A DNA stretch of 64,000 nt from Peribolospora baueri (Eukaryota; Basidiomycota; Peribolosporomycetes; Peribolosporales; Peribolosporaceae): positions 1 to 64,000 of the forward strand of contig JAMDHS010000035.1 of assembly GCA_029717555.1 (NCBI GenBank), written 5' to 3'. Made by a program: the position numbers and the translations under genes. This document shows, one piece after another, positions 5,034-62,101 of the stretch (position 1 is the stretch's first letter; every line of letters begins with the position of its first letter). The notes under the pieces were generated by a model. The model was not told the origin of the DNA and ran no database searches. It saw nothing but the letters and a program-made list of their open reading frames with translations.

Positions 5034-7723
5034 TTACGCTCTCGTCTCCTCTCCCCATTCCCTTCCACTTCCACTCCTGCGGCCCTCCTCGGCCATCTTG
5101 GCTTTCCAAGCCCTCTCGAAAGCCCACCGCTCCTCTTCGCCCCTCTCCTCGTCCACGCCCCAGAGCAGGATGAGCACGGGGAGGAGGACCATTGCTGCTA
5201 AGAAGATGAACCTGCGCACAAGGGAGGTGTGAGAGAGAGAGAGAGAGAGAGACGAAACACGTCACGTCAGCCGAAGGGCAAGCTCCAGGGAAGACGGCCG
5301 ACTCACCCGTTTCGAATGTCGTCCGTCTTGTCGCTGATAAAAGCGATCACCAACGGACCCACAAAACTGGACCCTTTGGCGGTGAGAGAGTAGAGAGAGA
5401 AGAGCCTGCCTTCGTGCGAGGGAGGGAGGAGGGCGGAGAAGACGGTGCGGGCGTAGGATTGGAAGGCGCCCAAGAGATGGCCTGAGCGAAAGCAACGGGG
5501 TATGGAATGAATAGGCGCGGCGCGTAGAGTGAGCCGCCCCGTCGTTGAAAGAGGACAATCGACGAAACACAAGTCGGAAAAAGACGCTAATGGCTCACCA
5601 AAAAAGATGGTGCCGACATACATCTCCTTCGGTTGAGTCAACCCTCCCCATCCCCATCCGAACAGACCTTTCTCCCTGACGCTAGGAATCAGCCCCAGAC
5701 ACCCGTACAGCGGGATCAACCCGGACAGCGCGACGATGATCTCAAACGTCCGCTTGTTGCTCGCCCCTCTAAGCACATATGGCTGTACGAAGAAGGGCCA
5801 CAGCAGGGCGCCTACGATACCCGACAGCGGCGCCGCGACGGCGAGGAGGATAATCGACGACGAGGGCATATGCAGGATCACCTTTGAGAAAAGGATCGCC
5901 GTGGAGACGATCGTTTGGAGGCCTGGCGGACGTGCGGAGGAGAAGGGCGAGCAGATCTCAGAAGCAGAGCCGGTCGTCCTCCCCTCCCCGCCCCTCCCCC
6001 GCCGGATCACTTACCATCGCTGAGGAAGAACCAAGCGGCCAAAAAAGCGGACAAGCATCGCAGCTTTCTGGCCTCCAAAAGCAGCTCCCACAAGTCCTTG
6101 CAGCTCCTTCCCGCCTCTCTCAACCATCCACACCCACACCTCCACGATCGCCACGACCGCCTTGCCCGACCCGCCTTTCCGTCCCTCCCACCGCCACGGC
6201 CGGCGCTCTTCCCGGCCCGGCTCGGCAATAGCGCGGCAGAAACGCCGCCTCCGATGCCCCACACAATACCAGGAAAGGCGACGACGAACCTCAGGGCTGT
6301 CGTGTCGCTCTTCTTGTCCATCCGATCGAACGGTATGATGAGAAGGAGCAGGAAGCTTATCGCCACAGCGTAGCCTATCGCGACGCCGCGGGAGGAGACG
6401 CGCGAGGTAGTGAGGGAGAGCAAGTCGTGGTAGGCTTGGGACGGGGTGTGCAGTTCCGAAGGCGGGATCAGGACGGAAGAGGCGGAGGAGGACGGGTCGG
6501 AGGGGTCGTTCGACGACCTGTCTATCAGAGGTCGGTCTTCTTCGTCTTCTTCCGACGCCCGGGAGTCGGAAGAAGACGCGTGCTCCGAGTCGTGGCTCGT
6601 TCGGACTCCCCATTCCACTGCTGGGTCATAAGGGCCTGCCCCATTCCGTACTCCCTCGCCGCCGTCCTTCAAAGCGCCGTCGGACGACGAGGAAGGAACC
6701 GTGGAGCCATTCCGGCCGTTCGCGTCGATGCTGCGCCTGCCCTTAACATGCCACTCTTCCAAGCCCTTCTTGTACACCTCTCCCCAGCCTCTCACCAAGC
6801 CTGGAAGGTAAGCGTTGAAAGCAATCATAGAGCCGCCATAGGAGGTGTTGGCGATTATGGCTAGAAGGGCAACGAGGGGCCAAACGACGGAGGAGGCAGA
6901 GAAAGGAGGCGCTAGGATGGCTATTAGAGCGATTGGGCCGGTGACGGTAAAGATGCTGAGGAGGCGATGGCGCTGCCGGACTGCGAGGTAGGAAGACGAC
7001 AAATGGACATGGATACGACAATCAGAAGGATACGTCGCAGAGGGTCGCCTGACCTTCTTGTTCCAATCGCAAGATCCGATGCTCCTAATAAGCTCCGCTC
7101 ACCATCATCCACAGCTCTCGCAATACAAATGCTCAACACAGCCAAAGCGGCCATGCCGGCACTACTGGTATATAAGCTGAACGCGCTCGTTTCGATCCAC
7201 CTCGAGCCCCATATCCTCACTTCACATCTGCTCTCGGGCGGAGGAATCGGAGGAGGCGGAGGAGGGGCGCCGGGCGAGACTGGTTTGGTGGGTACGAGTA
7301 GATCTGGAGGGGCCACGCAAGGCTGGTCGTGTGATGGGTAGAGATAGCCGTTGTCGCGGGCGTATTGCTCGAGGGCGATTGGAAGAAAAAAAGTCATTGC
7401 GCAGACTGCGAACACCTGGGAGGACAGGGGAAGAGTCAACACAACAAAACGTAACTATGAATGGAAAATCCAAGAAGCTAGGTCTACTCGGCTGGGTTGC
7501 TCACCTCGGAACAGGCTCCATAAGCATACCAGGCCCAAAGCTGGCTCTTCTTTGTCCTCGTCAACACCTTGGCCGCTGTGCGCGTTCCTTCGTCGCCTCG
7601 ACAAGCATCCTCGTCTTCTTCCTCGTCTGACACATGGGGTTCAGGATCGAGAGTCGCGAGGCTGTCTGCCCTGGAACGAGTCGGCGGCGGTGAGTTGGAG
7701 GTAGAGACGTCTGGAAAGACCAT
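5034..7723 (-). CDS. ATG22: Vacuolar amino-acid effluxer Atg22
   Basis: Six exons in transcription order: 7723-7505, 7415-7103, 6980-6015, 5922-5599, 5481-5307, 5211-5034; phases agree and give 724 residues. Atg22 is an MFS-like permease of the vacuole membrane that releases amino acids made by autophagic breakdown. Family marks visible are SQLWAWYAYGACSE at the first membrane segment, FAVCAMTFFLPIALEQYARD, NTSYGGSMIAFNAYLPGLVR, RGVAIGYAVAISF, and the late SYARTVFSALLPPSHEGRLF with SLTAKGSSFVGPLVIAFISD. The roughly 130-residue acidic/Ser-rich loop between the NAYLPGLV and RGVAIGYA blocks is longer than in yeast. The N-terminal 50 residues are acidic and cytosolic. ATG 7723 is the first in the exon. 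The gene diverges from the 8627 gene across about 900 bases. Confidence 0.9.
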
Positions 7724-8626: not shown

Positions 8627-10884
8627 ATGTACGCCGTCGAACGTCCCTTGATGGCACCATGGCCATCGGGTCAGCGATCCTGGGGTCTCGACGCTACACC
8701 CATTCTTCCCAGGCCCACTTTTACCCCGTCGCATGCACGGCAACCCACGTTTCCCAACCCTTTCGATTCCTTGTACGACTCCTCAGCTTCGAATCCAGGC
8801 CCTCGCTACGACGCAAGAGGATACGATTCCCAGGCATCCCAGTCTGATTATCTCGCCAGCCAGCCCTCGCGCTTCCTCGCGGGCTACAGCGACCACCCTT
8901 CTCCCGGCTTAGCCTCAGCCTCTGCGTCTGCTGCCCCTCCCTCTCGTCACCGCCCCGGTAAACACCGCGCAACAGCGATGGCAGGTGCCTCGCGCGACTT
9001 TGACACCAATTTTGTGGATACTCACCAGGGTCGACCTGATCTTGACCCGCTCTTATTCCCTTGGGTTGAGACCGGTCCCAGCCCGTATAACGCCGCTGCC
9101 ACCGCGCTGTCGCAGGCGTCTGGGATCAAGCCGAATGCGAGTGCCCGTACACCTGTGCCTGGTGTGCCTGGGACCGTTTCGTCAAACGCCGAGCGCACGA
9201 TAGGCATTGAAGGTGCTCCGCTGGTCGATGAGCCGGAAGAGATGCACGAAGGGGAGCTGCGCTGGGTACGAGGAGGTAACGGCCCTTTGCCCGCCTCCGG
9301 GGCTTCTCAGTTCACCTCTCGCGGGGAGGGGGGAAGGGGCATGAAAAGGGCGGCGACAACCGCTGGGACGTGGAAGGACAGCATGAAGCGAGATGGTGGC
9401 GGGCGTCTAGGCGACCAGGACAGGAGTTTACGTACGGTCGAGTTGAACAGGAGCGGAATCGCGGCAAGCTACTCGGGTACTAGTCGGTATCACGCTCCGC
9501 AGTCCGGGTACCACATGGAGAGCGCCGCTTCTAAGGTGTTTTCGCCAACCGGGCAGCCTGTACGTACAGTTATGCGTCTCCTCCGCCTTCCTCACAGCTG
9601 CTCATCGATGTCGATGTAGTCAGCTTAGTTAGTTGCTCAATGTTCTTTCGTCACTCCCTGTCTCGCCAGCCGGTGGGATATCCTAAGCAACGCCACTTAG
9701 GGTTTCGGGGTCCTCCGCTGGGTCCTCCGCAGGTTCCTCCGCTAGGTCCTCCGCATGGCCCTCCACAAGGCTACAAGTTTCCTCCCGCTGGCAGCGCTCC
9801 ACCGAGTTCCTATAGACCCCCAGCCGCTCCCTCCAATAGCTCTTCTGGGCTGCACACGTTCGGCCGTTCAGCCTCGGTGGGACGCTCAGAGAAGGAGAAG
9901 GAGAGGGGAAGGAAGCAGAGCTCGACTGGGAGTGCTGGGCGGCCCTGCGCCGACTCGCAAGACCGCTTCGAGCGCGCCGCTGTAGCCAAGGCTGCCGACA
10001 CTACGTTGGAGTCGGAGGTTTCGACGGTTGTAACAATGCCGAAGAGGGTGCCGAGCAAGCTCAGGAAGGTGCATCCGCCGCAACGTGAGGACAAGCAGCA
10101 GCGCGGTGGCTCGCTCTCGCGCATAGCAAGCTTCGTCGATGGCGACGACGATATGGACGACGCGAACGTAGTGATCCCATTCCATGGTGGTCCTCCGTCT
10201 ACGTCTCCGTTGTCGTCGTCGTCGGCGGCGAAAGCAGCAACGTTTGCGGTGGCGGTGGCATCAAAGGTGCCACCGCCAAGTGAGACACCAATGCAGAGTG
10301 TGGAGATGAGCCAGCTGACGACCTCGCTGTCTCTGTCTCCCCTCATGCCTGCTTCCCGTGCCGTGCCCATCAATGTGCCGTTACCCGTGGGTTTCGACGT
10401 CATCGACCGTCATGTCGTCCAATCGTTCTCTTATCCGTCCCCGGTCCCTGCTCCCACTTACCCGGCATCACACACTTTCTCCGTCGCCTCCCGTCCCTCT
10501 TCGTTCGCAATTTCGCCTTCACCGACGGCAACCTACGCCCAGCCACAGTCATGCTCGATCAGCCCAGGTCTGAGCAGCCCCGGCTGTGGAGGAATCGGTA
10601 TCTCCGACTCTGACGTGGGGGCGGGTGATTGGGGTAGGATGAAGGAGAAGGAAGGGAAGAGGACAAGGTGGGATTCAATGGAGGATCGGTTTGGAGGATC
10701 GCCTCCGCTGGTCGGACGGGCGGTCACCCTTACAAACGCCAACCTACAACCTTTGAGCGGTAGCTTCAAACTCATCAACGAGATGAAGCCGAAACACAAG
10801 AAGGTTTCTAGCACGTCTTCGTTCAAGGATCACTGGCACACTGGGTCGATGAAAGGATGGAGAGCGCTATGGCACATGGCCTGA
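8627..10884 (+). CDS. Ser/Pro-rich disordered protein, unknown function
   Basis: Exons 8627-9559 and 9670-10884, joined by an intron with GTACGT donor and CCAG acceptor in phase 0; 714 residues. I do not recognise a family. The protein is rich in Ser, Pro, Gly and Ala, with a short GPP repeat just after the junction (GPPLGPPQVPPLGPPHGPP) and basic Ser-rich patches, suggesting a disordered scaffold or regulator. Codon choice is less GC-biased than in the neighbours. The frame ends at TGA 10882, but the same frame keeps its composition after that stop and a second one (TAG 10900). The protein therefore looks like the N-terminal part of a formerly longer one. Confidence 0.55.
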
Positions 10885-16380: not shown

Positions 16381-17877
16381 ATGGATCACTTCCCCGGTTC
16401 CTCGTGGGGTCGTCCGCGGGACGACCGCCTCGACATGTTCTCCACCTTTCCTCTCTCCGGCGACCGCAACCCGGTACCCGCGGGCAGAGATACGTTCGCC
16501 GATGGCGTGCAGAGGACGCAGTGAGTCTGTCTGTCTCATAGGAGACGTGTTTGGCATCTGTGGGGTTGTAAGAGCAGCTGTAGCTGAGCGGGCGGAAATA
16601 GCCTTATACGCACCGTGGGGCCGGATCAAGTCAACTGACTCGTTTCGACTCTCGACTCATGACGCTCTACCAGGCAGCCGATCATAACCGGATCGTCAGT
16701 TCTGGGCGTCAAGTACAAGGACGGCGTCATGCTCGCCGCCGACACTCTCGGTGAGGGGCAGCCTTCTTCTCCCTTTCGCGTCTCTGCATGCTCAGTCGGG
16801 CAGGAGAATTAACACATGTCGACGCTGCCACCTCGTCTGCTTGGCTCTTCCAACACCTCTGCTACCACCAGCCTCTTACGGCTCCCTGGCCCGATTCAAA
16901 GACATCCGCCGCCTGTTTCCCGTGGGAGAGCACACAGTGCTTGGCGCTTCGGGGGACATGTCGGATTTCCAGTACATGCAGCATCAGTTGACACAATTGA
17001 TGTGAGTTTCCGGCGGACGACTGTTTGGGCGGTTGTGATTGAGTGCTAGCGGCGCTCACCCCCGGTGATGATCGTTCTTTGCTTCGCCGCAGGATCTCGG
17101 AATTTGACGCCGACGACGGACACGTGCTGACCCCCACACAGATCTACGAGTACATTGCTCGAGTGATGTACGCTCGACGGTCTAAGATCGACCCTCTCTG
17201 GAACGCCTACGTCCTGGGCGGCGTCGAGAAGGGAGGACGCAAGTTCCTGGGATACGTCGACCTCCTGGGAACGACTTACTCCAGTCCTACGATCGCCACG
17301 GGCTTTGGGGCTTATTTGGCGCAGCCGTTGCTGAGGAAGGCGGTGGAAGGAAGGGAGGACGTGATCGAGGAGGAGGAGGCGAAGGATATCATCGAGAACG
17401 CCTTGAGGGTGCTGTGTGAGTGGCGATAATTGTCGGTCACATTCGACTTGTCGACTTATCACTTTTCGCTCTCGTTGGACCAGTCTACCGCGACGCAAGA
17501 AGCTTGAACAGGGTGAGTTGGCCTGACCGCCTCCGTCGGGCGTGTCGCTTTGCCGAGCGTCCACGAGAGCGGAGCGACAGACATTTTCGGGGTTCGTCCA
17601 TTTCTGCTCACCACCTTGGCTTGGTCCCACTCGTGCTCTCCTCCCGTGACGCTGTCGTCCTTCAGTTCCAAATCGCCACCGTCACCGAGGCAGGCCTCAC
17701 GATCTCCGAGCCCAGATCGGTGTCGAGCAGCTGGAAGTTTGCCGAGGGGATTCGGGGGTGAGTCGGCCGTCCCGTTTTCGCGCTTCGTTGCGGGCGGGTA
17801 TCGTGTTGCTGACTTGTTGATCTTCCAACGTCCGTTCCGTTCCGTCGCCCGCAGGTACGGTGCGCAGACGCAGTAGA
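16381..17877 (+). CDS. PRE4: 20S proteasome subunit beta7 (PSMB4/Pre4)
   Basis: Seven exons: 16381-16520, 16674-16750, 16872-17001, 17093-17415, 17484-17512, 17666-17757, 17856-17877; 270 residues, phases consistent. Family marks are QPIITGSSVLGVKYKDGVML, then AADTLASYGSLARFKDIRR, GASGDMSDFQYMQ, VLGGVEKGGRKFLGYVDL and KFAEGIRGYG at the end. Beta7 is a non-catalytic subunit of the 20S core, fitting the TG(T/S)SVLG context in place of an active N-terminal Thr. The first 45 residues form the propeptide. Exons 5 (29 bases) and 7 (22 bases) are very small. A divergent promoter is shared with the bromodomain gene. Confidence 0.92.
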
Positions 17878-18254: not shown

Positions 18255-20592
18255 TCAGGTCGCGGCGGCAGCGACAGTCATGCCCTCCGCCTCCGCTGTC
18301 CGACGATCAGAAGCCAAGGGGCGAAGCTCGTGACGAATCGTGTCAGCGAGCGTCTCGACGTCGGCCACCTCTGCAACGCTCCACACCTCCACCTCTTCCT
18401 CTTCTTCTTCCTCTTCCCCTTCCATCCTTCCCCCAACCCCAGGCCCTCCTCCTCTTCTCTCCGCCGCAGCCCTCCGCTCAGCCTGCCAGAAAGAAATCTC
18501 TTTCCTCAGAAGATGAGCGCACGCTTTGCCAGGGCCGAGACATATGAACCTCCTCACGCCCCTCGCGTCCGCCTCCTCCTCCTCCCCGCCCACCAAGTCC
18601 GTCGGCGCTTGCGGGAGGGGTTCGAAGCCAAAGTTGGTCGTGTGCGGCGACGACCGTCCGTCGTCGAGGAGAGCGCGGATGGTGCGGCGCCATTGGACGG
18701 GGGAGGTGACGCCACGGAGGAGGTCTGTGCGTATCGTGGAGGGACGGGCGAGGGGAGAGGCGTTGTAGGACGACATGACGTGTCGGGCCGGTGCGCCGGC
18801 GGGGTGCGCAGAAGGGCGGGGAGAGAGGAGAGGGAGGGCGTCGACGGCCGGTCGAAGGGCGTGGACGACGGGGTGCATGAGCCTCGTCCCGAACGGCGCC
18901 ATCACGTGCGGCAGGTTGGCCGCCCGAGCGCCGAGGGAGAGCGCGCGTAGACGGGCGCAGGCGTAGTCCACGGCTGGGGAGGTGCCACTGAGAATGATCT
19001 GGGTGGACTGGCGGCAGGAGGGATGGGAGGAAGGAGGGTGTGAGCGTCATGCAGCATGGTTGAAGTGGGCTCGAAGGGAAGGGAAGCTCACGCTGTTGAT
19101 CTCGCCGATGCCGACCCAGTCCCCCTCCTCCAAGCCCATCTTCTTCAGCTTGGTCTTGTCCCCTTCCACAATCTCCTTGCCCACCTTCCTCACCTCGGCC
19201 AAAAGCTGGTGGAGCTTGCCGGGACGACAGACGACGGCGGAGAGCTGGTAAGGCGGTTCTGGCAGAGTCGAATTGGCGGTGGGAGAGGGGGAGGGGTTGC
19301 CTTGGAGGGGAAGGTGGGAAGAGACGAGGAGGCCGCGATGTCGGGAGAACTGGACGGCATGGCGGAGGGAGAGGAAGCCCTACGAGTACGAGAGCCAAGG
19401 ACCACGAGGAGAAGAGAAAGAAAAGAAGATGCGAGTCAGCTCTCTCCCTCCTTTTACACGCACCGACGCATTGGGCCCGTCGAACACTCACCCCAGCGGC
19501 TAGAGCGCCGACGGTACCGGCGCCATGCCCCGCCGTCCAAGCGCCTCGCTCGCCTTGGGCAAAGGTGATCCCAAAGTGCTCTTCGAGGACGGTCAAAAAG
19601 CTCGATCCGGTGGCGAGCATGGCCGGACCGGCGTTGTAAGGGGCCATGAGGGTGGCCTGGTCGCCGGCATGAGCTAGCTCGCGAAGGGAGAAGGAGGCGG
19701 CGCGTCTGTCTAGCAGGGCGTCCTCGAGACGAGCGGTGTGGCGGAGGATGTCTGCCCACTGGTCCGAAACGGAGCCGTCGGCGGCAGGAGATGATGATGA
19801 AGAAGAAGAAGACGAAAATAGGGCGTCGTCGACGTCGTCCCAGACCCTCCTCGCCTCGCCAAACGAGTCGTAGAGGTCCTTGGCCATGCCGGCGTAGGAA
19901 TGGGCCTGTGAGGGGAAGATGAGGGCGGTGCGTTTCGGTTTCCGACTAGGCCGAGCGGAGGAAGAGGAGGAGTTGAAGAAGGCGAGGGAGGAGCGAGTTC
20001 GGGCGGAGGTGGACGTGGCGGAAGGAGACCGGTCGGGGGAGGCTGCTGCGGCGGAGAGAGGGGTAGGAGGGGCACCGCGCGGGGACAAGGTGGACGAAGG
20101 TCTTGATCGTGGCCGGCGGTCTGAGGAAGAGGAGGAAGGGGTAAGGCGAAGGGGGGACGGGGATGACGACGGTCGTCGACTCTTGGGCGTCGGTGGAGTG
20201 GGGAACGCCGTGAGAGAAGGGGCCATGGGGTGGCCGTGCAAGAAGGTGTTGGGATCCCTGTACGCCCTCTGATAGCTCGATCCGGAAGCGAGAGCAAGGG
20301 CGTCGACGTCGCGGCGGGTGGAGGTGGAGAGGAGGCCGTGAGCGACGGTGGGATTTGCGTGGGTGGGAGAAGGAGGGAGGTGGAGGACGGGGAAAGAGGA
20401 GGTGGAGGGGAGACAGGGCGAGGCGGCGGCGGCAGGCAGAGCTGCGCTGGGATGAGCGCGAGGCGCCGACGTGGACCCCTGTCGGCGCGCTCCCAAGGAC
20501 GATAAGGACGATGGCGATGGGCACACCGATGGCGGACGCACGCACGAGCATGACGACCGGGCCGCGGGGGTGAGTGCGGAGGGTGGGGGCAT
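18255..20592 (-). CDS. MCT1: Mct1-like malonyl-CoA:ACP transacylase, active-site residues lost
   Basis: Exons 20592-19492, 19379-19092, 19007-18255, all phase 0, 713 residues. The first about 235 residues are Arg/Ser/Ala/Pro-rich and may include a mitochondrial presequence. The FabD/Mct1 fold follows: RTALIFPSQAHSYAGMAKDL, APYNAGPAMLATGSSFL, AGHGAGTVGALAAG, AVQFSRHRGLL, then HVMAPFGTRLMHPV and FICLGPGK near the end. Active members have GHSxG with a catalytic Ser and a His in a PFH-type motif. Here these positions are Gly357 (GHGAG) and Gly503 (APFGT), and the GQGSQ loop reads SQAHS. The Arg of the RG motif is kept. The family loads malonyl groups onto mitochondrial ACP; this copy is probably a pseudoenzyme. 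The frame is intact with clean splice sites. ATG 20592 is the first in frame. Confidence 0.78.
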
Positions 20593-21965: not shown

Positions 21966-24301
21966 TCAGAACATGCCGGGCATGCCGCCGCCCATACCAC
22001 CGGGCATGCCGCCGCCGCCGGCGCCCTTCTCCTCAGGGCCGTCCACGATGGCGCACTCCGACGTGGACAGGAGCGAGGCCACGCCCGCAGCGTCCACCAG
22101 AGCCGTCTTGACCACCTTGAGCGGGTCGATGACGCCGCGCTCGACGAGGCTGGCGAAGGAGTGCGCAAGTCGGCGGCAAGGCGTGTCAGTCATGAGACGG
22201 ACCCGCACACTACCCCAGGCAACAAAAGACGAACGAGCAGAGACTCACTTGGTGTACTCGCCGACAGCAGCATCGTAGCCAAACTCAAACTTGTCGCCAT
22301 ACTCCTCCAGCAGCTTGCCCACCACCACCGAGCCCTCGCTGCCAGCGTTCTCTACAATCGTCTTGGCCGGCTTCTGCAGCGCCTGGCGGATAATGTTAAC
22401 GCCGAGCGTCTGGTCAAAGTTCTCCGTCTTGACGTCGTCGAGCGCCTTGGATGCCTTGAGCAGCGCCACACCTCCACCGGGTACGATGCCTTCCTCGACG
22501 GCCGCGCGCGTCGCGTTCAGCGCGTCGTCGTACCGGTCCTTCTTCTCGCCTACCTCCACCTCCGAGCTACCGCCGACCTTGATCACCGCCACACCGCCGG
22601 AGAGCTTGGCCAGGCGCTCCTGCAACTTCGTCCTGTCGTACTCGCCCGTCGTCGTGTCGTTGATGGCGGCGCGGATCTGCTCGATGCGCGCCTGCAGCGC
22701 GTTCTTGTCGCCCTGGCCCTCGAGGATCACCGAGTCCTCCTTGGTGACCGTCGCCGCACCGCACTGACCGAGCATCTCCGGCGTCGCCTTGTCCAGCTTG
22801 ATGTCCAGCTCGTCGGAGAAGACAGTGCCGCCGGTGAGGATGGCAATGTCGCCCAGGATGCTCTTCCGGTTGTCGCCAAAGCCGGGAGCCTTGACGGCGC
22901 ACACCTGGAGCTGGCCGCGGAGCTTGTTAAGGATGCATGCCGCGAGCGCCTCGCCGTCGACGTCCTCGGCGATGATCAGCAGCGGTCGGCGCTGCTGGGC
23001 CGCGATTTCGAGCGACGGAAGGATGTCCTGAAGGAGCGAAATCTTCTTCTCCGACAGCAGCACCATCGGCTTCTCGAACTCGCACCGCTGCGTCTTGACG
23101 TCGGTGATGAAGTAGGGAGAGATGTAGCCACGGTCGAAGCTGTCATTTGCCCAAGACGACGGATCGGATGAGCCAACCCATCCTCGCTGCAGTCGACTGC
23201 TCTGCGATGACAAAAAGAACACTCACCGCATGCCCTCGGTAATCTCGATCTCGTCCTCGATCGTCTTGCCCTCCTTGACGGTGATCACGCCCTCCTTGCC
23301 GACCTTCTCCATGGCGGCGGCGATGAGCTCTCCCACGTGCTTGTCGCCGTTGGCGGAGATGGTGGCCACCTGGGCGATCTCGGCGCTCGTCGTGATGACC
23401 CGCTTGTTGGCCTCGAGGAACTTGATCACCGCGTCGACGGCCGCTTGCGACCCTCGGCGCAGGTCCATCGGGTTGCATCCCGCGGCGACGTTCTTGACAC
23501 CCTCGCCGTAGATCGCTCGCGTAAGCACGGTGGCGGTCGTCGTGCCGTCGCCGGCGACCTCGTTCGTCTTGTTGGCCACGTCCTGGACGAGGCTGAGGCG
23601 CAAGGAAGTAAGACGAATGTGAGCGTGCTGAGTTCGGGACGCCACGGAACGCCACCCGGTCGAGGGGCGAGGGAGGCTCACCGAGCGCCGAGGTTCTCGA
23701 ACTTGTCCTTGAGCGTGATGGACTTGGCCACCGTGACACCGTCCTTGGTGATCTTGGGACCGCCGAAGGCTTGCTGAAGGGGCGCGGGCGCGGACAGGGG
23801 CAGCGACGTGGGATGTGAGCGAGGACCGCTGGGGGCGCGCAAAGAGGCAAAGATCGAACAGAGAGAGGCGCGCGCGGCGCACTCACCTCGATGATCACGT
23901 TGCGACCTGCGAGAAGGAAGGCGCAAAAGGGGAAAAGAAGGCGGTTAACGCGACGGCCATGGACGACGTCGCAATTCGAATCGAAGCGCATGCACACGCA
24001 CCCTTAGGGCCGAGCGTGACAGAGACGGCCTTTGCGAGGACGTCGACGCCGGCGAGCATGGCCGTCCGGCCTTCGTTGGAGAACTTGAGCTCCTTGTGCG
24101 TGGCCTAGACGGGGGATCAAAAAGGGGATGAGCGTTTAGGGGCCTGCGCGGGTCTGCGGAAGAGCGAGATGGGAAGCATCGCATCGGTCGGTGGCTCACA
24201 TATGACCTCGCCAAGACGCTCGAGACGGGCAGCGAGTTGCGCGCCAGGCTCCTGGGGAGCGTGGCGGCCCGAGCGAGAGGTGCGGAGGAGAGGCGGTTCA
24301 T
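21966..24301 (-). CDS. HSP60: Mitochondrial chaperonin HSP60
   Basis: Seven exons in order: 24301-24200, 24104-24002, 23906-23887, 23773-23682, 23592-23227, 23139-22249, 22149-21966; 585 residues, normal length. Residues 1-34 are an Arg/Ser/Ala-rich mitochondrial presequence. The GroEL fold is complete: [49 protein letters not shown] (nucleotide-binding DGTTT), [29 protein letters not shown], and a GGM-rich tail ending [11 protein letters not shown]60 folds imported proteins in the matrix with HSP10. Exon 3 is only 20 bases. The last junction splices ACC-AA to C-CTC, giving [17 protein letters not shown]. The gene is head to head with HSP10. Confidence 0.97.
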
Positions 24302-25722: not shown

Positions 25723-26843
25723 ATGCAGAGTGCCGTAAGCGAGAGGCGGCTCGTCGAGAGGACCGTTGCGTCGTGTCGCATCGCCTCGCGCTCGAGACGG
25801 GAGGGAGGGGGGCGTGGGCGGTGAAGGTGAAAGTGCAATTGCAAGGCATAGTCACCCATCCACTCGTTCGTTCGCATGCATTCATTGGTCCTGCGGCCCG
25901 GGATGTCACCGCAAAAGTGTGGCGGTCGCGACGCGGCGCCGTCTGGCTGTGAGCCATCCTGTGAAGTATCGTATCGTCCACCACTCAGTCAGCCAGTCAG
26001 TCAGTCAGTCTGTCCGTCTCTGTTTTGCTCGTCTGTCTCGCTTCAAGGGTCTCTTGTCGTCTCCAAGCGGCGTCCGGACCGATCTTGGTTGTGTGGCTTT
26101 GTCTCGTCTTGTCCGCTTCGATGGGCCGATCCTAGGCGCATTTAATCAGGCCGTCGCTCGCCCCGCGGCTTGGCAGACGCGTCCAGAGGGCGTCGCGTCG
26201 AAAACGGACGAAGGCCCGTGCGCGTCTCGCCTCTCCTCGCTTCGATTCGCTTCGACTGGACGCGGTTCGGCGTGCGTCGTCGCTGGCTAGCCCAGATGCG
26301 CTCTCCTCGTCGTAGTCGTCGTCGTCGTTGTCGTCATCGTCTTCGTCATCGTCGTCAAGCCGAGTCGAGTTTTGTCGAGCCGAGCCAAGTCCAGTCCGAG
26401 TCCGAGTTGCCGTCGTTCCATCTCGTCGTCGTCCGCATGCATTTTCGACTTCCCCTCCTTCCGTCTCTCTCCTCCCTTCCACCACTCCTCCCCTCCGCTT
26501 CCAGTCCCTTTTAACCCTCCCTTTCTTCCTCCTCCAGCTGTCCCCTCACCTTCCGTTCTCTCCTCCCTCCTCCTCTTTCTGTCCTCTTACCTCTTTCCTT
26601 CTCTCCTTCGCTCGCCTCCTTGCGCCTCACTAGCTCATTTAAAACGACGCGACGCGACCGCTCCCTCAACACTTCCTTCCAGCCTCGCACCGGCTCGTTT
26701 TCCCTTTTCCCTCCACTCACCTTCTCTCCTCGCCCATCTTCTTTCGCCCTTCCTTCCTCGTCCTTGCCCTGCCCTCGCTCACCTTTTCCCACCTTCCTCC
26801 CACACCTCCAGACGCCAAAAAAAAAGAAAGAAAAAAAATAAGA
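25723..26843. other. Intergenic region upstream of the Rua1_C gene
   Basis: HSP10 3' flank followed by a likely promoter. Holds a short CAGT/CAGC repeat (25985-26011), a GTCGTCGTC run (26312-26358) and a long pyrimidine-rich + strand tract (26440-26815) typical of a fungal 5' UTR. No gene recognised. Confidence 0.5.
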
Positions 26844-29800
26844 ATGGTCCCTTCCACTCCAGAGGCCAGGAGACGCACCACCACCGTCGCCTCCATGCCC
26901 CCTCTCGTCCGCAGATCCACGCCCGTCAAGTCCTCCGTTGATCCCCTCTCCGTAGCTCGCCTCTCTTCCATCGCCTCCGCCTCGCGCCACCGCGAACAGA
27001 GCCTCGACGCACCCTACACTTCCTTCCCGCCTCCGCCCACTTACGCCTTTGCCAGCAACCCGCCGTCACCATCCAGGCCAGGCGGAGTGCCCACCGATGG
27101 GTGGAGATGCCCCGACGGCCTTCATTCGCCCTCCGACTGGTGGCGATGCACCGACGGCGCTCATCCCCTACCGCCCTCGATTCCCCGTCCCCCTCTCTCC
27201 GACACCGGACGGGGCGCGCTCAACGTCAGCGTGTCCTACCAAGACGCATTCCGCCGCGCCCCCAGTCGTGGCTACGCTTTGTCGTCCACCGTCCTTGGCC
27301 CTCACGAGCGTCTGTCTCATGTGCCCGAGGAAGACGAGTTCGAAGAACACGACGCGACGCTTTCACCACCCGTCCCTGTCGCTCTCACCCATCCCTTGCA
27401 CGCCGCTGCCTCTGATCCTAAGCCCAGTCCCAGTCCGCTCAAAGCGCCTTCGCCTTCGCATGCTCACTCCTCCCAATGGCACTCTCCTCCTCGTCGTACG
27501 TCCGGCAGGAGCCTCCATGACGTCGTCCAGATGGGACAGTGGCTCCACCTCACGCCCTCAAGCACAAGTGCCAGCAGGACCTCTTCCGGACGGTCGACGG
27601 CATGGAGTCCAGAAGCCAGCCGACGCACGCTCAGTCGCGACAGTGGCTTCGCCACCGGTTTCGCCACTCCGTCCGCTAATCGCCACTACGATGCCAACAC
27701 GCCTTCGTCCGACTACCCGACGCCCTCGCCGTACTCTCCACAGCTCCACGCAGACCGCTTCATCCGCTCCGACGCCGTGGACGACGAGTACAGCCCTGAG
27801 GAATCCCCCGACACGCCCAGGACGATCGACAGCGCCATCCCATGCAGGTTCGGCGCCGAGGACGTCTTCGGGAGCGGGCGCCGCGTCGACTCGGCCGGAA
27901 CATTGCAAACCGCCAACGCCGGAGGCCCATTCCTACCGGCAGGCGCCGCTCGCGCCTTTCGCAAAGGATCCGAATGGAGGCTGGACATGAGCATCGTATC
28001 GCCTCACGATGACGTCTTCTACCAGGGCACCAGCGTTGAGCACACCCACGACGGGGCCTGCAGAACCGGCTCCCAATCGCTCGTGGCTAGCGTCCGGTCG
28101 TCTATGAGCGTCGGACATGTCGCCCACTACGGCGGTTGGAGTCCCGAGCAAGTCACCGTGACGCCGACGCGGCTTCTGTCCAGGACGGCGTCGAAACAGG
28201 TCAGCTTTTTTTTTTTTTTTGGTTTTACTCGTCTTACCGCCATCCGCTCCGTATCTTTGACTGACGGGCTGACCCGCGTCTCTTCCATTTTTCGCGGCTG
28301 GCAGACCTACCGTTCCTCTTCGCCTCGCTCGCCGACGGCCAGTCCGAGCCCGCGCAGCCAGCAATGCTTTGGTGATGCCAGTGGGTCTGATGAGTTCGAA
28401 GCGGACGGCAGCGAGATTTGGGACGACGAGAACGCGCAGTGGTCTCCGTACGCGTATTCCAGAGGTGGACGCACGCCACTTGGCTCTACTTCGCCAGAAT
28501 GTAAGGCCGTGCAGACTTCGGAACACGCATCCTCTCCGTTCCGTTCTCCAGCACGCTACCACGGTACCCGCCCGCCGCCGAGGCCGCAAAGGAGCGCGAC
28601 GCCTTGGAGCGAGACGTCGGATGTGTGCACGTCTCCTACTCGGGGAGTAACGCAGGTGAACGATCGCGCAAGCACGCCTCGCGCCGACAACGTCGACCAG
28701 GCACCAGTTAAGGAGGAGGTTTACGATCATGGACAGCGCGAGTTGGAAGCGGAGCACCAGTGTAAGCAGCGCACGTCTCTGCGCGTCGTCCTCTCCAGGA
28801 CTGGTGGCGCCTGGAAAGTCGAGCCCTCTTCGAGGGAGACTCAAGAGGATGAGCCGAAGCCTTTGCCGTCTGGTCCTTCCGGCTTTGCTTCCGCAGTCGT
28901 CCCTCCTCCCGAGCATTCTCTCCCAGCTTGGAGAGGGCCATCGTGCATTCACGACGGGCTCTTGCACACGGTGTCAAGCCCCGTTCATGCCAGTCCCTTA
29001 TGCACCAAAGTTCTTCGCAGCGGCGCCCACATCTCCTCACCTAGTGTCCAGCCAGTGGAGGCTCGCTGGCTGAAGAGGTCTCAGCCGGCGCAGGACTCGA
29101 CGTCCCCCAGTGCCGCCAAGGATTATTTTGACGGCGCGTTTTCGAGATCACACGACGGCGACGGCCGTCGTCCCCACTTCCACCATTTCTCTTCGCCGAC
29201 TCCCCGCGCGCTAAGCGACCATGAGAGCGCGGCAGACGGTCGCTGTGACGGGGACGGAGGTGGAGGCGAACGTGCTATGTGGCAGGCGACGGCGGCGCTG
29301 TCGCAATTCCAGTCGCGTTACGTGACGCGCGCTCAGCGCAGGACGATCCAGGCGCTGCAAGGCCCTTGCGAATCGAGCAACACGGAGATGGAGCAGATGG
29401 ACGAGTTTGAGCTGGGCGCCCTCGAGATCCTTGTCAACATGAAGAACGGCGATCGGCACGAGCCCAGGGTCGGCGGCCCGGGCCCGAGCCAGAGCCAGAG
29501 CGAGGTCGGGTCGATGGGAGGCCGCGGCTTGAGTGTGTACGCTTTGGGAGAATCGCTGCCCGCCCTCGGTGCCGGCACGACGCTGAGGCGGAAGAGACAG
29601 CGGCACGACAGCTGGCATCAAGAAGAAACCGTTTCGTCCGATCTCTCCAGCATCCCTGGCAGCGACCGTGGCTCCAGCCCTCCACCTCCGCCCGTGGCGA
29701 AGCGTCGCAATGCCGCCCGTAGAGCAGCGAGGCGGGTCCGGTCGAGGAACATGACGGGCGCCATGCCCCATTCCCATTCTCCCTTTGCCATCGTGTCCCG

Positions 29801-31571
29801 CCAGAGCGCCGTTCTCAGCTCTTCCGCTTCCATCGAGCCCGACCCCGGCTCCTCCGCGAGCGCCCCGACGCTGGCTCTGCCGCCATTGCCGGCCTTGACG
29901 CCCGCCAGCGTCCTTCCGCCGGACCTGATCAGGCGCACCCCACTCCCACCGTCGACGAGGACTGGCCACCTCCGCCGCACGTTCCCCACGAGCGTGCCGA
30001 TGGACGAGCAGTTTCCGCTGTTTTATCGTCGCTTTTTTGTGCCTACCATTTTCAACAGCGACGATCCCCTCAAGCTCGTCCTCTTTGGAGATGTCCAGAC
30101 GCCCGGAGACGGCGTCGACCGGTGCGTCTCCTCGACCTTGGATTGGATGACAGGCGTTCCTTCGCTGACCGGCTCTCTTGACCACCCTCTTCTTTGTTGA
30201 CAGTTCGCTGGCGGAAGCGGCTAGGCGGAATGAACGCTGCTCAGGCCAGGACAACCCTCCGCGCGGACCTTTTGATCTGTGAGCGCTCTCCCTTCTTTTT
30301 CGTTCTTTCCAGGAACCCACCAAAGGCTGACTGCGGCTCGCACACGGGCTTGTCTTTGTCAATTTCAAGGTACACGCCGAGGCTGGTCAAGGGTGTAGGC
30401 CCGAGCAAGGTGGGCCTGTGCCCCGTTTGCTGGGAGGACGGTGGCGCGGCAGTGTGGCTCAAGATGAAGCAATCCGCGTACAACTATCACATGCTGTGAG
30501 TTTGTTTCGTTCGGTCGATTTTCGAGACGTGGACGTTTCTGTTCACACTTCTCGGCTTCCTTTTTTGTCACACGTGTCGTGTCACATGCGTCAGATACGC
30601 TCATGGTGAGCTTGGGCTTGGGCTTCGCGCTTCCGGCTCGGGATGATTTTGTCATGCGGCGTTTTCTTTTCTGTTCGACCGAATCACGCTGATGACCTGT
30701 TGTTGAACGCGCCATCCCTCCTAACAGGCATCTCTTCAAGCGGAGAACCTTTCTCGCCGCCGGTGGCATACCGCGTCGTCGAGCGTCGGGCAACGACGGG
30801 GCGCGAGAAGAGCGAGATCAAGGAGGGCCGGTGCCATGAGTGCAACAAGTGGGTGCCCGTCGAGGGAATCAAGATTGGCATGGTGCAGTGCCCAGAGATT
30901 TATTGGTGGAAGGTGAGTGTCCCCGGCCTTTCTACGGTCTTCCGTCTTTCTGTGTTCGTACCTCCGTCCAGTCGTCGATGGTTCTACCAGAGCTAACACT
31001 AACGGACGTCTCGCAGCACGCCGCCAAGTGCCACTCGTCGCGCGTCATTGGCGAACAGGACGACTTTGTGGAGAACGCGGCTCTGCGGAGGATCCTGGCG
31101 TATGAGCGCTCTGACAGCGAGGGTGGTGGCGGAGAGACGAGCGCAAGCAACGGCATGGTCGGAGGCGGCGCCCAGCGCAGCGGAAGCGGAAGTACCACCG
31201 CCAGCAGCGCCGGCGCCAGCGCCTCCACGAGCAGACCTGCTACGCCTCCGAATGCACTGCCGAGCCCGCCTGTGAGACGTATTTGGGAGGCAGCGCCGCC
31301 AATGACGCCGCGTGGCCATCACCACACCGTTGTTGCTTCCGGGCGGGCCGTATCTCGGCCAGCCAGGTCGAGTTCGATCATGTCCATCTCTTCCCTCACG
31401 AGCCTCGAGCCAGACACCGAGCCGTCACAGGAGCGTCAGGACGCGGCGGCCAGGCAAATTTCCACGAGTCATCACGGCACTCCCAGGCCGTCCCTGTCGC
31501 CCGCGCCCGTGCCCGTGCCCGCGCCTCCTCCCAGGCCGCAAGCGGAGGAAGAGGCTGGGTGCGCTCGGTAG
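26844..31571 (+). CDS. Rua1_C-domain zinc-binding transcription regulator
   Basis: Seven exons: 26844-28199, 28305-30121, 30204-30278, 30370-30495, 30595-30605, 30728-30912, 31017-31571; 1374 residues. About 1050 N-terminal residues are Ser/Pro-rich and disordered. The C-terminal module matches the Rua1_C family, named after the Ustilago regulator of ustilagic acid genes: YTPRLVKGVGPSKVGLCPVC, VWLKMKQSAYNYHMLYAHGI, GRCHECNKWVPVEGIK, WWKHAAKCH. It offers two Cys2-His2-like zinc sites: C1100, C1103, H1123, H1128, and C1164, C1167, H1191, H1196. A nuclear regulatory role follows from the family; targets are unknown and no biosynthetic cluster surrounds it. Exon 5 is only 11 bases. Intron 1 (105 bases) is stop-free and in frame. 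Confidence 0.83.
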
Positions 31572-33523: not shown

Positions 33524-36500
33524 CTACCTCCGACCGGCGGCGCCGGCAGCAGCGAACGCGTCCGTCCCCGTTGCCAACAGCGCCCGCCTGGCTCGAGCGT
33601 ACGCGCCGCCTCCCTCGTGGCCGCCGTCGTCGCCGTCGTCGGAAGAGGCGTCGTCAACGGAAGTCGTACCGATGCGCGTCGTCCAGCCGCTTCTCGGTGA
33701 GCTGGAAGGACGAGCGCGCGTCTCCTTCCTCTTCTCCTTCTCCCTCTCCGCCCCGGTGCTTACGACAGACCTCGTCAAATGCGAAGGCGCGCGCCCCTGC
33801 GCCTCCCGAAAGCGGCCCATGTCTCGATCGGGATTGTCCGCGTCGGCATCGAACTTGGTGTCGGGTGCGAGGCGCACCGATTTGCGTCGCTCTATAGGCA
33901 CCGAAGCGGGCGATCCTGGCGCGCGGAGAGAAGGCGTACGGGCGCCGAGCCGGGCGGTCGTCGTCGCGCCAGGTGCGCTCGCCGAGGGCGTCGTCGCGAC
34001 GGACGAGAGTCGGGCGCCAAGCGGAGCAGAGAGGGGAGGAAGTGGCACGAGGCTCTTCGGCCTGTTCTCGTCCACCTCTTCTCCAGTCGCCCTCGAGCCA
34101 TTTTCACCTCCAGGGCCAGTCGCAAGAGGCAAAATCGGAGCGGCCCCCTTCTTCTCCTTGGAACGTGCGACCTTGGTAGAGGACGTGCCGACCTCGGAAA
34201 CAGCCTTCTCGACCGTCTTCCTCTTCGTCTTCGCACCGCTTGACAACGAGCTCTTGGCTTTCTTCAACACGCCCGCTCCGCCACCCTTAGCCTCCTTGAT
34301 CACTGCATCCTGACCGCCCGCTCGTCTCGTCTCGTCCCTCTCCTTCTCCTTTTCTTTCTTCTTCGCCTCCCCTTTCTCTTCCTTCTCCACCTTCTCCTTA
34401 AGTTCCCGTTTCGGCTTCACCTTCTCCTCCACGCCCCCGCCGACCTCTTTACTCCGCCTCTTCTTCACCGGCTTCCCGTCCGGTCCCACCTCCACAGTGC
34501 TCTTAGGTCTCCTGATGAGCCTCCCCCCGCCCACTCCCTCTCCGTCGTTCACCCATAGCGGCTTCGAGTTAACCACCCGGATGAGGTGTCTGTTCTCGCC
34601 CTCCTCCTCCTCCGAACTGTCTTGTTCCTGCCCCCTATCGCCAGTCCCGCTCCCACCGGTGGTCAAGCTGTGCCAGTTTTGAGATAACCGATGCGGCTGG
34701 TGCCGATGAGACGTCGCCGCGAGGTAGCGCTCCTCGGCCTTGATCTCCTCAAGGCGCTCGTCGGTTCGCGTGTGCCAGCGAGAGCCCGAGTCGTGCATGC
34801 GGTCCTCGTGCCCGTGTCTGTACCCGTCCACCACGGAGCCGCCTTTTTTCTTCCCGCTGAACGCTCTCGAGATCCCCTCCCAGAAAGACAGGCTCGTCGT
34901 CCTTACGCGCCCGCCGCCGCTGCCGCGGCCCTTCGCCCCCGTCCGGCCATCCGACGAAATGGAACTCGCGCTCGCCACCCCCCTGCGCGGCGTCACGTCG
35001 AGCGAGGGTCCCACGGCCACGGACGCGGACGCTCTGTGGTGGGATCGGCCGAACGCCTTGGCGGCAAAGCGCGCGCCTTCGTCGGTCGTCTCGTCGTCCT
35101 GGTCGCCGCCTCGGCGTAGAGGAGACGCAGCGTAGACACTTGGGAACGGCTCGAGCAAAGACGAACCGGGAGCGGTGACGGACGTGAGCGTTGACAAAGG
35201 CTTGTACTCCTCCTTGGGGCGGGGCTGTGATCCGTCCGCGCCTCGTTCTGACGCGCTGGGACGGACGACGCCGACATCCGAACTAGCTTTCTTTTTCTTC
35301 TTCTTCTTCATCTTCTTCGGAGGAGTCTGTGGGAGACCCTTGACTTGCTTGTCGGCGTCCTCGATCTCGATCTGGCCCTGGCTCTGGCCCTGGCCCTGGC
35401 TCTGGCCCTGGCTCTGGCCCTGGCTCTGACTGTCCCTTCGGGAGTGGTCGACGCGAGAGGAGGGAAGGAAGCTCCCTTTCGCGCCCTCGCCGTCCTCGTC
35501 CAGCATATGCGGCGGGGGAATGCCGAGCCGAGGCTCGATGAAGGCTCGCCGGTAGTCCTCATTCGAATCGGTCTCGCTCGCCTCGCCGTCGTCGATATCT
35601 TCGGCTGCTGGTGCACCCGCATTTGACGAGTCGTGCGGTGACGATGGAGGAGGATGGTTGTTGGGGAGGATCTGCGAGGCGGACTGGGAAGGGGTGAGGG
35701 ACGACGATTCAAGAAAGTGGGACGTGCCGCCATCCAAGCCACGCTCTACGATACGGCGGCGGTCGTCAAGACGAAGAGAGTGGTAGGGGGAGTAAAGGAA
35801 AAGAAAGTCAGAGGAGTCAGAAAATGACACCGGACGGAGCGAACGGCTCACTGGAGCGAATCCGAGGTGGGTCCACTCGTTCGATCGTCACGCGCCGCAT
35901 CCGCGTCGGCCATCCTTGTTCTAGTGACGAAGACGGTGCCATGATCCTCTCCTTCCCATTTCCCCCCTTCTTCCTCTCCCCCTTCTCTTCCCCGGTCTCC
36001 TTTCGCTTCTCCTTCTCATTTCTATTCTCCTTCACTTCCTTCATTTCCCCTCCGTCCTCCTTCCCATCCTCAACCTTTCCCTCCTTCTTCTTCCCGTGCT
36101 GCTTCTCCATCGATGTTTCCCCCTCCTTCTCGCCGCGCTCCAAGCTGAGCAAGCGAGCATGCGCTCGTTCGAACACTCGCTTCCTAATCGCCTCGGCCCC
36201 GGCACCACGTATAGTCTTTCGCCTCTTCAACTCACCTCCTCCGCGTGCTGTAGCCGTTTCGTGTCCCGTCCACTCGGTGCTGGCGCCGACTCCGTCGAAA
36301 TGGCCGTTCGAAACGAGGACGTCAGGTACGGGATAGGCGTTGGCGTCTGTGCGAACGCCATCAAGGAGCAGGATGGCTTCTCGGGCGGCGTCCTGCATGA
36401 CGGCGCCGGCTTCACCCATGCACTTCATGCGCATTGTCAGAGCTTCTTTGAATGTGCGCCGTTTGACGCCCTCCAGCGCTATCATTTCGTTTCTCAGCAC

Positions 36501-38160: not shown

Positions 38161-41100
38161 ATGGACCACCCTCCCGGCTCCCAGCCTCGCGCCAACGGAC
38201 GTCCCTCCTACCTCGCCGACTCAGACCTCGACTCTGACGATGAGAACAACTCGACCGGCTACTACACCACTGTCATTCGCCCGCCCTCCTCTCCTTCGTC
38301 CTCAGGACGCTCTGCGACCAGGGCTCGAGGCGTGCCTTCCCGTCCCTCCTCTTCTTCTTCGCCTGACGACGCTCCCGCGGCTGGTGCCGCCTCAGGAGGA
38401 AGATCCCATACGAGGACGCCGTCATGGGGACATAACGCGGCCGCCGCTTACTCCTTACACATTCGGGGACGCTCCGGCTCCTCCTTATCCACCGTAAGGG
38501 ACAAGGGCGATGGCGACGACCGCGTGCCGCAGAGCACCTCCCAACCTTCTTCAGTACCAGAGTCTAAACCCCTCTTGCCGACGACGCCGGCGACGCGATC
38601 CTCGTCCTCCAAACACAAAAGCACACGCTTCCTCCTCCTCAGCCTAGTTTTCCATCTTGTGTGGACGTACAGCGTGTTCAGCATCTACTTCACCTCTCCC
38701 GTCGTGCACACTTCCAGACGGTTCTCCATCGCCGATACGTACGACGACCCTTCCTCTCCTTTCCTTCGCCCCGCGAGTCCAGCGGAGAGGGGGGCCGTTG
38801 AACCCCCAGCGGACCGCCTCGTCCTCATTGTCGCAGACGGTCTCAGGGCAGATACTATCTTTGGTGACCACGATCTGTCCGCGTTCCCGGACTGGGCCAA
38901 GGGAGACGGGGGCGTGGCGGATTTCTCTAGGGCGCTGTGGGAAGATAGGGAACGCGATCGCGATCCCGCCCCGACCTCCTTCAAGCCTTCATCGTCCCGC
39001 CTCACGGCAGCCCCCTACCTGCGCTCGCTCATCGCAAATGGCAAGGCGGCTTGGGGAGTGAGCCATACCCGCGTGCCCACGGAGAGTAGGCCGGGCCATG
39101 TAGCCCTCATCGCGGGCATGTATGAAGACGTCAGCGCCGTCACAAAAGGTGGGTCTGCGCTCGTCCGCCGGTCCCGACGGCGTGGCGAGGCTGATGCTCA
39201 ACGCGATTTCGCCCTGCTTCCTTTCGTCTTCTTCTGCTGACAACCCTTGTCTTCGCTCGCTCTTCTCAGGCTGGAAGCTCAACCCGATCAACTTCGACAG
39301 CGTCTTCAATCAGTCTTCGACCACCTTTGGTTTCGGCTCGCCGGACATTGTTCCCATGTTCGAGAGGGGCGCGCCCGAGGGAAAGGTAAAGGCTTGGTGC
39401 TATGATGAGGAGGATGAGGATTTCACTAAGGGTGAGTTGGCCGACCGTGTCAGACGTCGTTTTCATATTTCGCTCATCATCGATCGCCCCTTCCTTCTCC
39501 TCTCCTCGCACTATCGAAACCGCTCGTCCCCTCAAGATGCCACCCATCTCGACCTCTGGGTCCTCCACCACCTACGCTCCCTCCTCAAAAACGCCACCGA
39601 GGCCGGCCCCGACTCCGCCCTGTACAACCAACTCTATTCCCCCGGCACCGTCATCTTTCTCCATCTCCTCGGCCTCGACACCACCGGACACGCTTACCGT
39701 CCGCACTCGCCGGAGTATCTGGGCAACCTCGTCGTCGTGGACGCCATCGTCAGGGAGGTGGTGGGCATGTTGGACGACTTTTTTGCTGAGCACGACGGCG
39801 TCGTCTCCGGCGGTGGTAGTGGCCGTGGTGGGCGGAGTAAGACGGCGTACGTCTTCACCGCCGACCACGGCATGAGCGTCAGAGGAAACCACGGCGACGG
39901 CGACCCGGACAACACGCGGACGCCTTTGATCGTTTGGGGCAGCGGCGTCCAACCCACTCCTGCCCACCTCGCGGCTCCGTCGGCGGAGGAACGAGCGGCG
40001 CCGGCCGGTTCGACGGGAGCGGACATGAACGAGAAAAGGTTGGATAGGAAGGGCGAGGAGGCGTGGAGCTTAGGAGCGGCTAGGAGGGACGTAGAACAGG
40101 CAGACGTCGCCGCTCTGATGGTGGGTCAACTTGTCCTTCCCATTTACCTCTCCCGCGTTTTTGAGCGCGACCTGGAAGCTTATCTGAGTGGTCCTCCTCC
40201 CTTCAGGCCGCCCTGCTCTCCCTATCTCAACCAGCCAACTCGGAGGGCGAGCTGGCGGTCGAGTTTCTGGACGCCTCGGACGAGCACAAGGCTCGCGCCA
40301 GCCTTGCGAACGTCCTTAGCATCTTGGAGCAGTATCGGGCCAAGGATGGTGAGCGTGTGCGCTCAAAGGCTCTTTCCGTCTTCAGGCCGACGTCGACGAG
40401 CTGACGGCTTGATATCCCTTTTCTTTTGCGGACGCCTGGTAGAACTTCGAGCCGCTCGTCTGATCCGATACGTGCCCTACGCCCCCCTTGTCACGCCCAA
40501 CTCTCCCATCGTGCCGCCAGGACAAAGGGAGGTTGACGCCGTTCGGCAGCTGATCCGTGACGGGAGATATGAGGAGGCGATACGAGCTTGCAAGGACCTC
40601 CGGACGCTCATACTCAAGGGGCTCAGGTATCTGCAGACGTGAGTGCGAAAAGTTCCTCGGCCAGTCTGTCGGTTAGGTTCCCCAAGTTTCGTCATCTCAA
40701 CGGCCGGCTTTCGTCCCCCACACAGGTACGACCGCCTGCTCCTTTGCTCTCTCATCGTGGCTGGCTACCTCGGCTCCATCCTCTACTCCATCCTCTTCGT
40801 CTTGGACTCTTACGTCCTCCCCTCCTTGCCTGGCCCGTCCCAGGCCGCCGTCGTCAAGGGTCCTCAAGCCGAGGGCCGATGGTGCATCGCCCTCGGTGTT
40901 GGCGTCCTTTTGAATCTCTTCGCCGTTTTTGCCGTCCAGAACGATCCCCCGGAATACTACGCCTATGCCGTCTTCCCTGTTTTCTTCTGGACCCGCGTGC
41001 TGCAACGCAGGCGCTCGTTCGCCCGGGTCTGGGAAAGGGCTTTCCCGACCTCATACGCTCCCCAAGCCCCGCTTTCTTCCTTCTTTTCCTTCCTTCCCTC

Positions 41101-61116: not shown

Positions 61117-62101
61117 GTGCGAATCGGATTGAATCCGGCGGGCGGGGGCGAGGAGGGCAGGAAGAAGGGAGGGAGGGAGGAACGACGAAAGACGAAAGAG
61201 GATGGCGGGGTGGGATGATGGAAGGGAGCGAGGATGGGAAGACGGGAAGGAGGGAGAGGGTGGTCGTCGTCGTCGACCCGGTCGAACCGACGATAGGCGG
61301 CGGGACGGTGGTGAAGGAGGGAGGCCGAGGTGGCGATGGTGGTGGTGAAGGGGAAGGCGGCGCTGGAGGTGGACCTGTCGCTGGCGCTGGAGCTGGAGCT
61401 CGACGACGTCGTCGACGTCGACCTCAAGTCCGAGTTCGACTGGGATGGATGGAATGGATTGGCTTGGCCTTGGCCTTGGACTGCGCTCGATTCCATCCGC
61501 CCGCCCCGTCTTCGCCCTCCTCACTCACCGCCCCTCGCCTCGCCTCGCCAGCCTCGATGGCGCGGAGCAACGAGATGGGAGGACGCGGACATACGCGGAC
61601 ATGAAGCGGGCAGGCACAGCATGGAGAAAGAGAAACGTGCAGAGGGGGCCGCCACGCGAGCCGAGCCAAGCCTCTCTCTTCTCGGCCGTACCGCGCACTC
61701 GCACAAGGCACTTATTATTACTTGCTTGCTTGCGCTCGCCGGGCCGCCCCGGTCTCGCCGATGGTACTTACGTACGTACATACATACATACACGCATACA
61801 TACATACACGCATACACGCATACACGCATACATACACACATTCATAGCAGCGCGCGAGACGGTCACGTACATGTGGGGGATATGCGACGAGACACGGAAA
61901 GGAAAGGAAGGAACGGCCACGCGACGACAAATGCATATTAGACAGGGGGGTGGATGATGGATGAATGGACAAATGGATAGATGGATAGAGGGCGCCCAGG
62001 AAAGCGGGAAAGCACGCATGTATGGATGAATTCTATTGCGTCACGCCGCGAGCGCGCGCGCCACTCGTCCGTCCCGCTCGGACGCCGTCCGTAGTCCGTC
62101 G
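61117..62101. other. Intergenic region upstream of KIN1
   Basis: KIN1 promoter and 5' UTR side, then the 3' flank of the dehydrogenase gene. A Ser-rich minus-strand frame from ATG 61496 ([19 protein letters not shown]) may be an extra KIN1 exon. Contains the CATA microsatellite listed separately. Nothing else is supported. Confidence 0.45.
61765..61845. repeat. (CATA)n/(CACGCATA)n microsatellite
   Basis: CATACATA and CACGCATA units between the KIN1 and dehydrogenase genes. All reading frames through it are open but meaningless. Confidence 0.9.

Follow-up and report, generated by a model that had tools for sequence, protein, structure and literature searches.

The Mct1/FabD homologue of Peribolospora baueri has lost the nucleophile serine and the catalytic histidine of the family, both replaced by glycine, and as judged from its sequence the protein very probably lacks transacylase activity. 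It seems to be the sole stand-alone copy found in the genome assembly. We consider the chances about even that this Mct1, the only stand-alone Mct1/MCAT homologue found, is a pseudo-transacylase retained for a non-catalytic role, the likeliest being mitoribosome assembly.

Gene structure and family assignment

In the window, by which we mean the whole 64,000-nucleotide stretch of DNA analysed, the gene lies on the minus strand (20592..18255) and has three exons. An earlier reading of the letters without database searches (hereafter the sequence-only reading) had given these coordinates, this strand and this splicing, and all of them proved right: both exon junctions are phase 0, the introns (112 and 84 nt) are GT-AG, and the product has 713 amino acids. 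The parts of the gene are as follows.

19492..20592, minus strand: exon 1, codons 1-367, with the N-terminal extension, the low-complexity linker and the first part of the FabD-like domain (gene model, translation and residue counts)
19380..19491, minus strand: intron 1, 112 nt, GTGAGT..TCGTAG (gene model)
19092..19379, minus strand: exon 2, codons 368-463, with Arg382, which corresponds to FabD Arg117 (translation and alignment)
19008..19091, minus strand: intron 2, 84 nt, GTGAGC..CGCCAG (gene model)
18255..19007, minus strand: exon 3, codons 464-713 and the stop codon, with the second part of the FabD-like domain and the acidic C-terminal tail

Residues 1-93 contain no Asp or Glu and six Arg or Lys (residue counts). 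Many mitochondrial presequences likewise have no acidic residues, and a mitochondrial location of the protein is putative. Ser, Pro and basic residues are abundant in residues 94-220, the FabD alignment spans residues about 221-640, and the tail (residues 641-713) is acidic, with 19 Asp or Glu.

The NCBIfam model TIGR00128 (fabD) matched the 713-residue protein in three stretches (E=1.2e-19), scoring 70.9 bits where the curated cut-off is 260.9; for Pfam PF00698 the E-value was 0.056. Acyl_transf_1 was the sole Pfam domain in the model at E<=1, with no partner domains of a polyketide or fatty acid synthase (PKS or FAS), namely KS, DH or ACP. The best PDB match by phmmer was the FabD entry 3qat (E=3e-15), and human MCAT (8csp, 2c2n) was among the 33 PDB sequences matched at E<=1. 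Identity to Escherichia coli FabD was 74 of 291 aligned residues in a MAFFT alignment that included the genome's own acyltransferases, and 29% in a two-sequence alignment. A yeast Mct1 query, of which the sequence may not be exact, gave at best a BLASTP match of 20 residues (E=0.006) and was thus uninformative. By its Pfam and fabD scores, the P. baueri homologue is strongly diverged. It shares with yeast Mct1, human MCAT and bacterial FabD a stand-alone FabD-like domain in which the Arg117 and Gln11 positions are kept; however, it differs from all of them in its long low-complexity N-terminal region and its acidic tail, and from FabD in that the positions of Ser92, His201, Gln63 and Gln250 are all occupied by Gly.

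Substitutions in the active site

The active-site positions are the following.

19897..19911, minus strand: SQAHS (residues 228-232) in place of FabD GQGSQ, with Gln229, corresponding to FabD Gln11, kept (alignment)
19627..19629, minus strand: Gly322, codon GGT, at the position of FabD Gln63 (alignment)
19522..19524, minus strand: Gly357, codon GGC, in GHGAG, at the position of the nucleophile Ser92 (phmmer and MAFFT)
19335..19337, minus strand: Arg382, codon CGC, at the position of FabD Arg117, kept (alignment)
18888..18890, minus strand: Gly503, codon GGG, in PFG, at the position of the catalytic His201 (phmmer and MAFFT)
18711..18713, minus strand: Gly562, codon GGC, at the position of FabD Gln250 (alignment)

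The sequence-only reading had reported the Ser to Gly change in GHGAG, the loss of the His of PFH, the altered GQGSQ loop and the kept arginine, and had suggested that the protein could be a pseudoenzyme. The alignments confirm each of these observations, with the addition that the Gln within the loop is retained, and a catalytically dead homologue is well supported by sequence. In all four phmmer alignments displayed (3qat, 2cuy, 5ypv and 3ezo, four of the 33 matches), Ser stands opposite Gly357 and His opposite Gly503, and the MAFFT alignment, which included E. coli FabD and acyltransferase domains encoded in this genome, gave the same placement. In the latter, Asn462 was also found to be kept (FabD Asn162). 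A second Ser-His pair was considered and rejected, as there is no GxSxG motif anywhere in the 713 residues.

As comparison sequences, we used E. coli FabD together with five PKS acyltransferases encoded in the assembly. All six have the Ser, the His and a Glu at the third residue after the Ser, which are absent in the Mct1 homologue. Of the 40 columns conserved in five or more of these six, the homologue retains 18; the FAS MPT domain of the same genome, the C-terminal half of which was misaligned, was left out of this count. The P. baueri protein differs from FabD at 217 aligned positions and has Gly at 13 of them, four of which are the Gly positions of the active site listed above (random expectation about 8e-6, for sites chosen post hoc). 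The residue at the nucleophile elbow is strained, and Gly is thus a natural substitute for Ser. FabD Arg117 binds malonate. FabD Gln250 works via its backbone, and Gly at that site tells less than Gly at the position of His201. A scan of genome contigs listed 80 FabD loci, nearly all from Enterobacteriaceae by title, which is too narrow a sample for a conservation count.

Single sequencing errors, a possibility that the sequence-only reading had raised for the two catalytic codons, do not explain the four glycine codons, since His or Gln becomes Gly only through two or more base changes each. Taken together, the active-site changes involve several bases at separate places. A splice variant that restores the Ser motif was also considered and rejected. 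In all eight listed donor-acceptor pairs the donor lies downstream of the Gly357 codon, and thus no listed pair alters this residue.

Search for a second Mct1

We searched the assembly (22.1 Mb in 178 contigs, possibly incomplete) with PF00698, TIGR00128 and the protein itself, and found no second stand-alone Mct1 in it, with GHSxG and PFH motifs or otherwise. PF00698 matched nine places (other acyltransferases), and each of the nine combined Acyl_transf_1 in the same frame with one or more partner or linker domains of a PKS or FAS (Pfam); since all of them are PKS or FAS frames, a hidden active copy among them was rejected. TIGR00128 gave 14 rows, three of them within the Mct1 homologue gene, and the core of the protein as a query matched its own three exons and nothing else. 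The sequence-only reading had also named, as a refutation, the case of an only copy that is active, of which the first part, the single copy, appears to be right.

The 22-Mb genome has several PKS loci (C55, C112, C113, C19, C37, C178 and C106). A type I FAS is located at C123 near 405-417 kb; in its open frame the beta-type domains are followed by the alpha-type ones, an order that points to Ustilaginomycotina. Another FAS-like gene lies at C106 near 124-130 kb, close to PKS genes.

The remaining steps of mitochondrial fatty acid synthesis

A Cem1-type ketoacyl synthase was not found in the assembly by a KAS search or with a yeast Cem1 query. The KAS search gave 18 rows. The 16 that were read or scanned were 13 PKS synthases, one FAS alpha synthase (C123) and two thiolases (C135 and C119); the remaining two (C106:123368 and 123944), which are unread, adjoin the FAS-like gene. 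The yeast Cem1 query, of which the sequence may not be exact, gave ten weak rows, of which the best-scoring (27% identical) is in a PKS frame and the short ones at 34% and 37% identity are also PKS. On these grounds, a hidden Cem1 among the 16 KAS rows read and these Cem1 matches was rejected.

Etr1 served as a positive control. A yeast protein query located it at C127, where four collinear pieces are 42-54% identical to Candida tropicalis Etr1, and its GVYPSKP, which holds the catalytic Tyr, can be assembled by removal of a 92-nt GT-AG intron. Although present, Etr1 was missed by a PF00107 search and by a motif scan of the PF00107 loci. Thus, a single failed search is no proof of absence, and this applies to Cem1 too; the absence of Cem1 from the genome is probable, not proven, and the gene may sit in an assembly gap.

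The other components were recovered to different degrees. A mitochondrial ACP is encoded at C156:362569, with the phosphopantetheine Ser present (DLGLDSLDAVE), and LipA at C95, in four pieces. There are two LipB-like loci: C133:49788-50372, which passes the cut-off together with its neighbours, and C178:255033-255242, a partial match to positions 12-76 of 187. If octanoate has another source, a second octanoyltransferase could be relevant. Htd2 is probably encoded at C171, where PF13452 matched at E=0.0066 in the genome and at E=0.0011 on the frame, below the cut-off, and where we take the stretch FRFSALTFNGHRIHYD to be that of Htd2; a second piece of this candidate had no Pfam match. The central domain of acetyl-CoA carboxylase was found at one locus, in two pieces. 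Since neither a working Mct1 nor a Cem1 was found, mitochondrial fatty acid synthesis (mtFAS) seems to have lost both of its malonyl-handling steps, and the later steps remain.

Retention or decay

The sequence-only reading took long uninterrupted coding as an argument against a pseudogene. This argument is weaker than it was put, because exon 1 is open over long runs in the other two coding-strand frames as well (293 and 214 codons). Better evidence for a real gene is the coverage of the exons by the FabD profile, the clean junctions, and the pattern of GC content by codon position, which in the core is 0.66/0.54/0.78. The reading frame and the splice junctions are intact.

One possible explanation of the lost residues is that the gene is in decay: mitochondrial chain extension would have been lost recently, Cem1 would be gone, and an unselected Mct1 would keep its open frame by chance in GC-rich DNA. 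The loss of the catalytic residues, the retention of 18 of 40 conserved columns, the weak Pfam and fabD scores and the long open runs in the other frames of exon 1 would all agree with this. However, the frame is intact across three exons with GT-AG junctions, the core keeps the codon-position pattern, and the FabD profile is recognisable in three stretches; furthermore, the active site has changed at many separate points, which implies that the gene has persisted for a long time. We regard decay as a serious but rather unlikely explanation, and retention of the protein for some function as fairly likely.

A possible non-catalytic role

The sequence shows a FabD-like domain that is kept across all three exons but has Gly in place of the nucleophile Ser, of the catalytic His and of two more polar residues of the pocket. 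In the retention that we favour, the mitochondrion would have given up the chain extension that depends on malonyl-ACP, and the protein would persist because it binds something, with assembly of the mitoribosomal small subunit, as for human MCAT, as the likeliest such role.

Human MCAT as an assembly factor is, by analogy, the strongest precedent for a non-catalytic role. It was found on immature mitoribosomal small subunits, at the head, together with METTL17 (PMC9892005). According to the same account, the two proteins keep the head open, sequester h31 and hinder the docking of h42, and the departure of MCAT triggers compaction of the subunit. The assembly role, as set out in the passages of PMC9892005 on MCAT, includes nothing that needs Ser-His chemistry. 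MCAT was seen again in state N1 in a 2026 study (PMC13294482), and it is named in PMC12003892 and PMC11452305. The human and P. baueri proteins belong to the same family, and no catalysis is described in PMC9892005 for this role of the former; however, human MCAT is also placed in mtFAS as malonyl-CoA transferase (PMC9899272), and a ribosomal role of the fungal protein is putative. Yeast is said in PMC9892005 to lack an MCAT homologue, for which uS13m and uS19m may substitute, and this statement speaks against an assembly role in fungi. It sits oddly with PMC9899272, in which yeast Mct1 is shown as the counterpart of MCAT. Taken together, mitoribosome assembly is a tentative assignment of the retained function, to which we would give somewhat over one chance in three.

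The retained function might instead be the binding of acyl- or malonyl-CoA or of holo-ACP, by which the protein would act as a regulator through its kept Arg and its ACP-facing surface; a regulator that binds mitochondrial ACP or acyl-CoA was what the sequence-only reading had suggested. Arg382, Gln229 and Asn462 are all kept, and the genome encodes an ACP with its Ser. The ACP of Plasmodium falciparum mitochondria, which lacks phosphopantetheine, gives a precedent for a chemically silent part of the pathway that is kept for a non-catalytic task after the pathway was lost (PMC8547962), although there the carrier changed and the enzymes are gone, whereas P. baueri has retained the Ser of the carrier and has one dead enzyme. 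The kept Arg is compatible with such binding, but it is the assembly role that has structural evidence for the human orthologue (PMC9892005), and we consider ACP or acyl-CoA binding unlikely, at about one chance in five.

A pathway without the MCT1 step is also described for another fungus, Pneumocystis jirovecii (PMC11426481), but that species has neither the gene nor a cytosolic FAS, whereas P. baueri has the gene, with a dead active site, and a type I FAS. In the titles and abstract openings of the open-licence PMC papers listed by literature searches, no naturally active-site-dead Mct1 or MCAT was described.

Catalysis by Mct1 might also have become dispensable if the synthesis or supply of octanoyl groups needs no malonyl-ACP; a thiolase working together with Htd2 and Etr1, as known from Euglena, would be one such route. 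No Cem1 or working Mct1 was found, Etr1, ACP, LipA, LipB-like genes and a probable Htd2 are kept, and thiolase genes exist in the genome. However, the Euglena route belongs to anaerobic wax-ester metabolism, and the thiolase genes of this genome are presumably ordinary genes of beta-oxidation or the sterol pathway. Such a malonyl-independent synthesis appears improbable. Equally improbable in our estimate is a full separation of function, in which the mitochondria would do without malonyl-ACP chemistry, octanoyl groups would be made or imported independently of malonyl with ACP, Htd2, Etr1 and LipB-type transfer, and the glycine-pocket Mct1 would serve for binding alone, to the assembling mitoribosome or to ACP. 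If the retention of a dead Mct1 holds, it would be a natural experiment that splits malonyl transfer from mitoribosome assembly, both of them roles reported for MCAT/Mct1, and it could be tested whether mitochondria with ACP, Etr1 and lipoate synthesis work without malonyl-ACP. The defects caused by human MCAT disease mutations have been suggested to stem from the assembly role and not from fatty acid metabolism (PMC9892005), and a naturally dead but selectively kept enzyme would bear on this question.

Other residues might in principle sustain activity, for example His497, six residues ahead of the lost His, or Thr360, three after Gly357, with Arg382 and Gln229 still in place. However, catalysis in the FabD fold passes through an acyl-Ser intermediate, the elbow of this protein has no Ser, there is no GxSxG, and Cem1, which would use the product, was not found in the assembly. 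We consider such activity highly improbable.

Neighbouring frames in the window

Ten long open frames of the window were scanned with Pfam, and six had no match at E<=1e-5, namely 434-1915, 9535-10881, 26643-30197, 39104-40639 and 45038-47587 on the plus strand and 33527-35887 on the minus strand; these may be coding sequences that lack a known domain, or their openness may merely reflect base composition. A weak match to the proteasome beta subunit was seen at 17043-17429 on the plus strand (E=4.3e-4). On the minus strand lie an Atg22-like frame (6010-7098), frames that encode a protein kinase domain and a KA1 domain (56601-61524) and an ADH_zinc_N frame (62225-62605). Upstream of the Mct1 homologue and on the same strand, there is an exon of a GroEL/HSP60-type chaperonin at 22248-23222 (E=1.5e-123 for the best NCBIfam model).
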